From assembly GCA_016200085.1 (NCBI GenBank), contig JACQFL010000045.1, forward strand, positions 29,799 through 93,798: a DNA stretch of 64,000 nucleotides, read 5' to 3'. The position numbers and the translations under genes were made by a program. The notes beneath the pieces are model-generated. The model was not told the origin of the DNA. It worked only from the letters and a program-made list of their open reading frames with translations, and made no database searches. Numbering within the stretch: the stretch's first letter is position 1; the number at the start of each line of letters is the position of its first letter. This document shows, piece after piece, positions 11,950-58,881 of this stretch. The DNA is from Candidatus Rokuibacteriota bacterium (GTDB lineage: Bacteria > Methylomirabilota > Methylomirabilia > Rokubacteriales > CSP1-6).

Positions 11950-12150
11950 ATGGCGACCGGACGAGTGAAGTGGTTCAACGACGCGAAGGGCTACGGCTTC
12001 ATCACGCAGGAGGGTGGCGAGGACGTGTTCGTGCACTATAGCGCCATCGATGGGCAGGGCTTCCGGAGCCTGGCCGAGGGCGATCAGGTCGAGTTCGAGG
12101 TGACCCGCGGCCCCAAGGGCCTGCAGGCCTCCAAGGTCCGCAAGGGCTGA
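11950..12150 (+). CDS. cspA: Cold-shock protein, CspA family
   Basis: [33 protein letters not shown]; canonical CSD. Confidence 0.96.
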
Positions 12151-12451: not shown

Positions 12452-12652
12452 ATGGCACAAGGCACCGTGAAGTGGTTCAACGACGCGAAGGGCTACGGCT
12501 TCATCCAGGTCGAGGGCGGCGAGGACGTGTTCGTCCACTACAGTGCGATCCAGGCCCAGGGCTTCAAGAGCCTCAGCGAGGGCGACAAGGTGGAGTTCGA
12601 GGTGACGAAGGGGCCGAAGGGGCTGCAGGCGTCGAACGTCCGCAAGGCCTGA
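12452..12652 (+). CDS. cspA: Cold-shock protein, CspA family (second copy)
   Basis: [33 protein letters not shown]. Confidence 0.96.
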
Positions 12653-12676: not shown

Positions 12677-12711
12677 CGGCCCGCCGAGTTCTTCGGCGGG
12701 CCGAATTTTTT
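12677..12711 (+). terminator. Rho-independent terminator of second cspA
   Basis: CGGCCCGCCGA-GTTCT-TCGGCGGGCCG then AATTTTTT. Confidence 0.92.
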
Positions 12712-12728
12712 GAAGTCAGACGAAAAGA

Positions 12729-13056
12729 GCCCCGACGGACTCTGCGACGCGCTCGATCCGGTTCTGCGGCGCGTCGCCCCGCTGGTGAAGAGCGGGACCG
12801 TCGGGGCCGGTGGCTTGCCTGGGTTCCCAGGCGATTCCACCTAGAGCGAGCGTGGAACTTGCCTAGGAGGCGACCACCTCACAGATCACCGTAGGGGTAC
12901 ACATCGGCTGGATCACCTCCTGTTCTCGGCAAGGGCGCCACGCGGGCCCAGTCCCACTGACCCCCAACCGGATGCCGACTCCCGGCCCGGGGCTCGGTCA
13001 CGTCAGCCGCCGGCGGAATTGTCGGCGGGGACGCTGCAGGAGCCCTGTTAGGCTCC
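12729..13056 (+). ncRNA. Candidate structured non-coding RNA containing a 16S rRNA 3'-end-like segment (no family recognised)
   Basis: Non-coding interval with many perfect helices: 12729-12738/12798-12807 (10 bp), 12744-12752/12769-12777 (9 bp), 12778-12783/12791-12796, 12809-12813/12837-12841, 12817-12822/12827-12832, 12850-12855/12938-12943, 12858-12863/12928-12933, 13039-13044/13051-13056. Confidence 0.5.
12881..12921 (+). other. 16S rRNA 3'-terminus-like segment (h45 plus anti-Shine-Dalgarno)
   Basis: ACAGATCACCGTAGGGGTACACATCGGCTGGATCACCTCCT versus 16S ...ACAAGGTAGCCGTAGGGGAACCTGCGGCTGGATCACCTCCT; last 17 nt identical. Confidence 0.8.
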
Positions 13057-13125
13057 GACCGATTTGTAGCCCTCATCGTACATCAGGCCGCGGGCGCGCC
13101 CAAGAAAAAGTCGTCCGCCGGTGTC

Positions 13126-13482
13126 CTACTTCACCACGATGCGGTCGTGGTTCCGCTCCCACAGCCCGTGACCGACGCCGTCCACCTTCTTGATGTCCTC
13201 CGGCTTCTTGAACGCGCCGTGCGCGTCACGGTACTCCACGATCTTCTCGGCCGCCTTGTGATGCACGCCGTGCAGCGTCATCAGCTCCTTCACGTCGGCG
13301 GTGTTGATGTTGACCTTGTCCGTGTGCTCCGCCGTGGAGGCGGCGGCCTCACGCACCCGCGCGGGATGACGCTCGCGCGTGTGCCCGGGAGCCATCTCGC
13401 GCGCGTTGTCCGACGCGACGGCCACGAGGGGGACGAGCCAGGGACCGACCAGCAGCGCGACGACCAGCAAGCGTGACAGCAT
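13126..13482 (-). CDS. ComEA-like helix-hairpin-helix protein with signal peptide
   Basis: KVNINTADVKELMTLHGVHHKAAEKIVEYRDAHGAFKKPEDIKKVDGVG. Confidence 0.88.
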   Translation of the reverse strand: MLSRLLVVALLVGPWLVPLVAVASDNAREMAPGHTRERHPARVREAAASTAEHTDKVNINTADVKELMTLHGVHHKAAEKIVEYRDAHGAFKKPEDIKKVDGVGHGLWERNHDRIVVK

Positions 13483-13668
13483 CGTCGACTCCTTTGCGGC
13501 CGGACGCATCCGCGCCCGACCGTCCACGAAGGTGAACAGCGCCTCGCGCGCGTCGCCACGCGACGCGCGCGTGACGCCCATTCAAGGAGCGCGACGCTCA
13601 GGAATCAACGCGCAATCTTTTGGACACGCCGCGGAGATACAGGCGCGGCCGCGGCGCGACCGCCGGCG

Positions 13669-47058: not shown

Positions 47059-47133
47059 TGGGGCGTGGCCAAGCGGCAAGGCGCGGGACTTTGGATCCCG
47101 TATTCGGAGGTTCGAATCCTCCCGCCCCAACCA
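47059..47133 (+). tRNA. tRNA-Gln (anticodon TTG), CCA encoded
   Basis: TGGGGCG/CGCCCCA acceptor, loop CTTTGGA, T-arm GGAGG-TTCGAAT-CCTCC. Confidence 0.95.
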
Positions 47134-57228: not shown

Positions 57229-57303
57229 GGGCCCATAGCTCAACGGCAGAGCCGCCGGCTCATAACCGGTCAGATCCTGGTTCGAGTCCGGGTGGGCCCA
57301 CCA
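57229..57303 (+). tRNA. tRNA-Met (anticodon CAT; elongator Met or Ile-lysidine not resolved), CCA encoded
   Basis: GGGCCCA/TGGGCCC acceptor; loop CTCATAA; T-arm CCTGG-TTCGAGT-CCGGG. Confidence 0.92.
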
Positions 57304-58516: not shown

Positions 58517-58881
58517 GCGCCAGAGAGGGCTGGGCGGTCGCCGGCCGCGGTCAAGCGGCGGGAGGAAAGTCGGGGCTCCACAGGGCAGGGTGCTGGGTAA
58601 CACCCAGGGGGGGCGACCCCACGGACCAGTGCCACAGAAAGTAGACCGCCGCTCCTCGGAGCGGTAAGGGTGAAACGGTGAGGTAAGAGCTCACCAGCGG
58701 CGCGGGTGACCGTGCCGGCTCGGTAAACCCCACCCGGAGCAAGGCCAAATAGGAGAGCGATGGGGTGGCCCGCCCCGCTCTCGGGTTCGGCCGCTCGAGA
58801 CGCCGGGTAACCGGCGCCCTAGAGAAATGACCGTCACCCCTCACGGGGGACAGGACCCCGCTTACACGCCCTCTCTGGCGC
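58517..58881 (+). ncRNA. rnpB: RNase P RNA, bacterial type A
   Basis: GAGGAAAGTC..GGCTCCACAGGGCAG, CCAGTGCCACAGAAAGTAGACCGCC, 14-bp P1 GCGCCAGAGAGGGC/GCCCTCTCTGGCGC; -10 TATACT at 58504. Confidence 0.96.

Follow-up and report, generated by a model that had tools for sequence, protein, structure and literature searches.

An apparent fragment of 16S rRNA on the plus strand of the window (the whole 64-kb stretch of DNA analysed here) is most likely the complement of a giant Shine-Dalgarno (SD) sequence that lies on the opposite strand. With a probability of roughly one half, this strand would carry a small, ancient and autonomous RNA gene, homologous to the Rfam family Ms_IGR-5, whose product captures ribosomes or senses the supply of free ribosomes. 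The anatomy of the RNA (Table 1) is well supported, and from that anatomy we infer ribosome capture or sensing. A single-copy RNA that is found across several phyla, pairs with the ribosome and has an invariant micro-ORF ending suggests that translation control includes an element not yet recognised, which, if the proposed role is correct, would amount to an RNA-based device that senses or parks ribosomes. The same proposal supplies a concrete hypothesis for Ms_IGR-5 of mycobacteria and Streptomyces.

The first-pass annotation drew attention to a match to the 3' tail of 16S rRNA lying outside any rRNA gene, an observation that holds. On the plus strand, ACCGTAGGGG (12888-12897) and CGGCTGGATCACCTCCT (12905-12921) belong to a block that is similar to the final 33 nt of 16S rRNA and that sits, as had been described, between cspA and a comEA-like gene (minus strand, 13126-13581); an Rfam scan of the window gave no match to the small-subunit rRNA model RF00177. 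The final 17 nt of the block are identical to the 16S 3' end, CCGTAGGGGAACCTGCGGCTGGATCACCTCCTTTCT, of three genomes of the same family (G018, G019 and G026), which served as the standard for this comparison, the organism's own 16S tail being absent from an assembly whose only detected 16S gene (G000 contig C30:183-1100), on a different contig from the window, is broken at the contig edge. The segment CCGTAGGGG matches as well. The sequence GGATCACCTCCT has a single exact occurrence in the 64-kb window; across the 3.57-Mb genome GGCTGGATCACCTCCT is likewise found only once, and controls gave no hits.

Read on the minus strand, AGGAGGTGATCCAGCCG forms with the Rokubacterial 16S tail a duplex of -35.8 kcal/mol, the strongest among 25,590 scanned 25-nt stretches of the window, while the regions upstream of long open reading frames reach a median of -11.0 kcal/mol against that tail. 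Among family members the complement of the mature 16S 3' tail spans 12-18 nt. By plain DNA similarity a 420-bp block is kept in 42 of 60 relatives and, with this conservation and the strongest 16S duplex in the scan, the block is far beyond chance. The minus-strand RNA does not bear the free anti-SD that had been proposed for the locus but instead its complement, a super-SD, and the case offers a caution for genome reading, namely that a striking 16S fragment may be the antisense image of an extended SD. In register with the SD match, CCCCTACGG (minus strand, 12888-12897, in the first half of the micro-ORF) is complementary to the 5' strand of 16S helix h45; its counterpart in locus L085 is TTCCCCTACGG, and L112 was likewise noted. 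This second 16S match is confined to the Rokubacteria-type group and absent in other clades, and it may reflect either extended pairing with 16S or an origin from the antisense of the rrs 3' end.

The minus strand is most likely the transcribed one, and transcription in the source organism is predicted from the DNA, because a U-tract terminator, promoter-like sequences, a better consensus fold, a frame-fixed micro-ORF and the orientation of actinobacterial transcripts all point the same way. All 43 of the Rokubacteria-type loci have a terminator-like stem with a T-rich tail, the stem showing compensatory changes, and only in the minus-strand reading does the T-rich tail follow the GGCCCCGACGG/CCGTCGGGGC stem. 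The consensus fold of 18 loci (RNAalifold, one set for both strands) reaches -124.5 kcal/mol on the minus strand as compared to -87.3 kcal/mol on the plus strand, the fold z-score of the RNA gene is -3.7, and the micro-ORF is present on the minus strand only. A strict promoter scan did not list the promoter of the window; in actinobacterial homologues, a promoter consensus TTG...TAc.gT precedes GTACACAGG, immediately upstream of the SD. The Streptomyces homologue has been mapped as a separate transcript (PMC8780764) and validated by RNA-seq (PMC8079986), and Ms_IGR-5 is expressed as a separate small RNA in both Streptomyces and mycobacteria. The earlier idea of a structured, conserved, translation-related element that is not rRNA stands, with its functional reading moved from the plus to the minus strand.

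Table 1. Features of the predicted RNA gene and its convergent neighbour (window coordinates).
Feature	Position	Strand	Basis and remarks
Whole RNA gene	12719..13067	-	~345 nt; approximate ends, start inferred from the -10 and end from the U-tract
-35-like TTGGGC	13098..13103	-	Read from sequence; 17 nt before the -10; under strict scan threshold
-10-like TACGAT	13075..13080	-	Read from sequence; TAGGAT in relatives; position conserved in alignment
5' structured domain	12923..13066	-	Consensus fold with several compensatory pairs
Super-Shine-Dalgarno AGGAGGTGATCCAGCCG	12905..12921	-	Perfect complement of the 16S 3' tail; same site as the plus-strand "16S mimic"
Micro-ORF, ATG...TAG, MCTPTVICEVVAS then stop	12863..12904	-	Conserved frame, start and stop
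GAGGTG (codons E-V)	12875..12880	-	Second box complementary to the anti-SD, 6 nt ahead of the final sense codon; invariant
P1 helix, 5' strand (last codons, GGTGGTCGCCT)	12868..12878	-	Anchored permutation test
CCTCCT at ORF end	12865..12870	-	Can cover the SD (AGGAGG 12916-12921); invariant consensus pairs; Rokubacteria/Deltaproteobacteria type only
P1 helix, 3' strand AGGCAAGCCACC	12809..12820	-	Anchored permutation test; interrupted in window copy
Terminator stem, 5' arm GGCCCCGACGG	12798..12808	-	Consensus fold and terminator survey of loci
Terminator stem, 3' arm CCGTCGGGGC and U-rich tail	12719..12738	-	Consensus fold and terminator survey
Convergent cold-shock protein gene (cspA)	12452..12652	+	Own terminator 12677-12709; neighbour in Rokubacteria, not in other clades

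The micro-ORF of the window has 13 codons (ATG TGT ACC CCT ACG GTG ATC TGT GAG GTG GTC GCC TCC TAG) and begins 11 nt after AGGAGG, and across the family its length ranges from 12 to 19 codons. A stop in the GAGGTG frame at a fixed distance (E-V-x-x-x-stop) was found in 68 of 68 non-redundant copies, most of which were retrieved by a pattern that contained GAGGTG and left start and stop free. In 63 of the 68, an ATG, GTG or TTG in the GAGGTG frame lies 7-13 nt after GGAGG, as compared to 17 and 0 of the 68 for the other two frames. Loci found by sequence model have the same ending, namely 30 of 30 inspected actinobacterial loci, 15 of 15 in the phylum of the Solibacteraceae and three of four in that of the Manganitrophaceae. 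Among close kin, the length from start to E-V differs by multiples of three (+3 in L016, L046 and L108), and the spacing from SD to start varies by single nucleotides. The stop is TAG in 55 of the 68 copies, though most hosts are GC-rich.

This conservation of frame, start and stop across phyla is, as far as sequence comparison can tell, a well-supported signature of translation. The encoded peptides include WTCEVAAR, RTREVAAS, GPREVTGC, VICEVVAS, WTCEVIVT and PTASEVAAS, in which only E-V and its distance to the stop are constant. Changes at codon positions 1, 2 and 3 number 109, 50 and 92 and form no clean protein-coding pattern, and therefore the peptide itself may matter little; the T and A codons show some synonymous bias. 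In 99 close pairs the GAGGTG box is unchanged at all codon positions, synonymous ones included, which points to constraint at the level of the RNA.

The last codons of the micro-ORF, which in most actinobacteria read GGTGGCTGCC, form helix P1 with a 3' motif (GGCAGTCACC or a variant of it) that immediately precedes the terminator arm; P1 does not overlap the terminator. In a permutation test whose anchor was independent of the tested positions, 237 of 312 cells were paired, whereas 5000 permutations averaged 199 and never exceeded 217, with compensation exemplified by GGTGGCTACG:CGTAGCCACC, GGTGGCTCG:CGAGCCACC and GGTGGCTGGG:CCCAGTCACC; when P1 was sought by free scanning, shuffled controls often reached 8-10 bp. 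The extra 5' domain of about 140 nt belongs to the Rokubacteria/Deltaproteobacteria type and is missing from the actinobacterial and Methylomirabilis types, which appear to begin about 10 nt before the SD. The minimum-energy fold of the window copy, in which P1 is interrupted, favours covering of the SD. In the Rokubacterial type the CCTCCT at the ORF end can cover the SD in place of forming P1, so that two mutually exclusive folds exist. A candidate start-codon hairpin, P0 (GUCC:GGAC), was rejected; it was complementary in 42 of 68 copies against about 5 when shuffled, but permutation gave 42 versus 40, with no covariation.

The only named relative of the RNA is Ms_IGR-5, and the actinobacterial part of the family is already known to Rfam. 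The window copy gives a full-length (1-184), colinear, minus-strand match to RF02471 at 30.3 bits (E=3.5e-5), which falls short of the gathering score of 45; the most fitting description is a divergent, elongated relative. In other Rokubacterial genomes the RF02471 match falls at the same locus as the DNA hits (e.g. G010, E=3.2e-6), and 14 genomes from two other families of the class match above the cut-off, at 50-72 bits; DNA similarity and RF02471 combined place the element in 56 of 60 genomes, and none of 14 control genomes has an RF02471 match. Ms_IGR-5 and the window RNA have in common the super-SD, GUGAGGUG, the stop, the 3' motif and the terminator, in the same order, whereas the 5' domain and the SD-covering CCUCCU are additions of the window copy. 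The open-licence literature searched held no description of a function for Ms_IGR-5, nor of its complement to the 16S tail, its micro-ORF with fixed ending or members outside Actinobacteria.

The groups with homologues are Methylomirabilota, Actinomycetota, Acidobacteriota, Nitrospirota and "Deltaproteobacteria". Among the matches listed by a pattern scan were named genomes of mycobacteria, Streptomyces, Brachybacterium, Saccharopolyspora, Jiangella, other actinomycetes and Rokubacteria, together with records titled Deltaproteobacteria and Desulfuromonadales, a Manganitrophaceae, a Zixibacterium and a Solibacteraceae; the core pattern found no match in viral contigs. A sequence model of 73 positions (R1) mostly found one strong copy per genome. 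In the genomes sampled it matched 74 of 247 from the Mycobacterium phylum, 26 of 149 from that of the Solibacteraceae and 4 of 198 from that of L119, and among 148 from the Manganitrophaceae phylum it gave 3 credible matches. A second model (R2), built from actinobacterial copies only, matched the window once (12862-12923, minus strand, E=7e-7) and recovered representatives of all the listed clades; its signal comes partly from the SD itself and otherwise from GTGAGGTGG and the stop region, and these cross-clade matches support homology over a merely shared SD.

At nearly all Rokubacterial loci examined, a convergent cold-shock gene adjoins the RNA, at a distance that is usually 190-310 nt, and a comEA-like gene flanks the RNA on its other side. 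The window has near-identical tandem cold-shock genes (11950-12150 and 12452-12652), and the pair or one of them recurs beside the RNA in Rokubacterial relatives. When neighbourhoods were compared across clades, no conserved neighbour gene was found and, since the RNA also has its own ends, it most likely acts on its own.

How such an RNA might act can be sketched from its parts. The super-SD would recruit 30S subunits with exceptional affinity, and the recruited ribosome would translate the micro-ORF. At the stop codon, the GAGGUG box, which lies 6 nt ahead of the P-site codon, a good SD-to-P-site distance with the stop codon in the A site, could tether the terminating ribosome, which would keep P1 open. 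The free RNA would have P1 closed, with covering of the SD by CCUCCU as a further option in Rokubacteria, and the ribosome-held RNA would have P1 open, so that the two-state RNA could serve either to capture ribosomes or to sense the supply of free ones. Ribosome footprints on the homologue in M. abscessus and M. smegmatis agree with the capture model, in a study that footprinted other ncRNAs too (PMC4974804). That the whole family forms a multi-phylum class of autonomous RNAs, with capture through the 16S tail, a micro-ORF, a hold at the stop codon by the second anti-SD box and a fold that reports ribosome supply, is put forward only tentatively, at odds well short of even.

Other explanations must account for the same features, the chief ones being a peptide mRNA and a pure 16S antisense RNA. 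The RNA might be a plain tiny mRNA for a regulatory peptide of 12-19 amino acids, in which the super-SD serves simply as a very strong ribosome-binding site and the message is protected by P1 and the terminator. The conserved frame, start and stop fit this explanation, as does the synonymous bias of the T and A codons, but the peptide varies widely between phyla except for E-V and its length, and the fixation of GAGGTG at synonymous positions points to a constraint on the RNA, leaving a simple mRNA unlikely, though worth serious thought. Less probable again is a non-coding antisense RNA whose pairing partner is the 16S 3' end, joined in the Rokubacteria type by the h45 5' strand, and which sequesters 30S subunits or affects 16S maturation, with translation incidental. 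Such an RNA would make sense of the 12-18 nt complement and of the in-register second match in the window copy and L085, yet the precise conservation of frame and stop would go unexplained, and other clades have no second match.

A short ORF, structure and a terminator also recall leader-peptide attenuators, in which translation of the micro-ORF would control read-through into a neighbouring gene. This improbable alternative was dropped; neighbours vary, no downstream gene is conserved and the gene that follows in Rokubacteria is convergent. Nor do P1 and the terminator overlap, and hence they are not an exclusive terminator/antiterminator pair. The SD decoy or ribosome mimic that the first-pass annotation envisaged, a plus-strand RNA with a free anti-SD, has the plus-strand match to the 16S tail in its favour, but it is contrary to all the directional evidence, from terminator, promoter-like sequences and fold to homologue orientation and a micro-ORF that exists on the minus strand only, and is very improbable. 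The further suggestion of a functionless rrn fragment captured by rearrangement is scarcely credible, despite the likeness to the last 33 nt of 16S; a single locus kept across the family, homologues across phyla and covariation all oppose it, and conservation refutes a recent scar, even if part of the Rokubacteria-type ORF may have arisen from antisense rrs.

The preferred reading, a ribosome-capturing or ribosome-sensing RNA, invites comparison with known systems. SgrS/SgrT and RNAIII/hld are dual-function small RNAs, each of which encodes a peptide and, like the window RNA, is a standalone structured RNA with a short ORF; in the window RNA, however, the ORF, of 12-19 codons across the family, has a fixed position relative to an RNA helix and the SD extends over the whole 16S tail. 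TnaC, a leader in which ribosomes arrest at the stop codon, is likewise a short ORF whose constraint is measured from the stop codon, but the window RNA has no regulated downstream gene, its peptide is poorly conserved beyond E-V, and arrest is hypothetical here. SD and anti-SD sequences are also involved in RsaE and the alphaproteobacterial CUCCUCCC-loop sRNAs, which have the anti-SD sense and base-pair to mRNAs, whereas the window RNA carries the SD sense.

Weak hits in alphaproteobacteria were rejected as family members, being mostly short SD-only matches or members of a different small-ORF family. Among the weak hits, in L226, L227, L230, L231, L233, L234 and L244 (matches near position 1501), CAAC.GAAAGGAGGTGATCCAATGTC recurs, an arrangement in which a full complement of the 16S tail is followed by a small ORF of about 23-26 codons, often with CCTCC near the ORF end, and which is probably a separate, analogous super-SD small-ORF family. 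Elsewhere in the window, the plus strand carries a class A RNase P RNA (58522-58880) and two tRNA genes (47059-47130 and 57229-57300).
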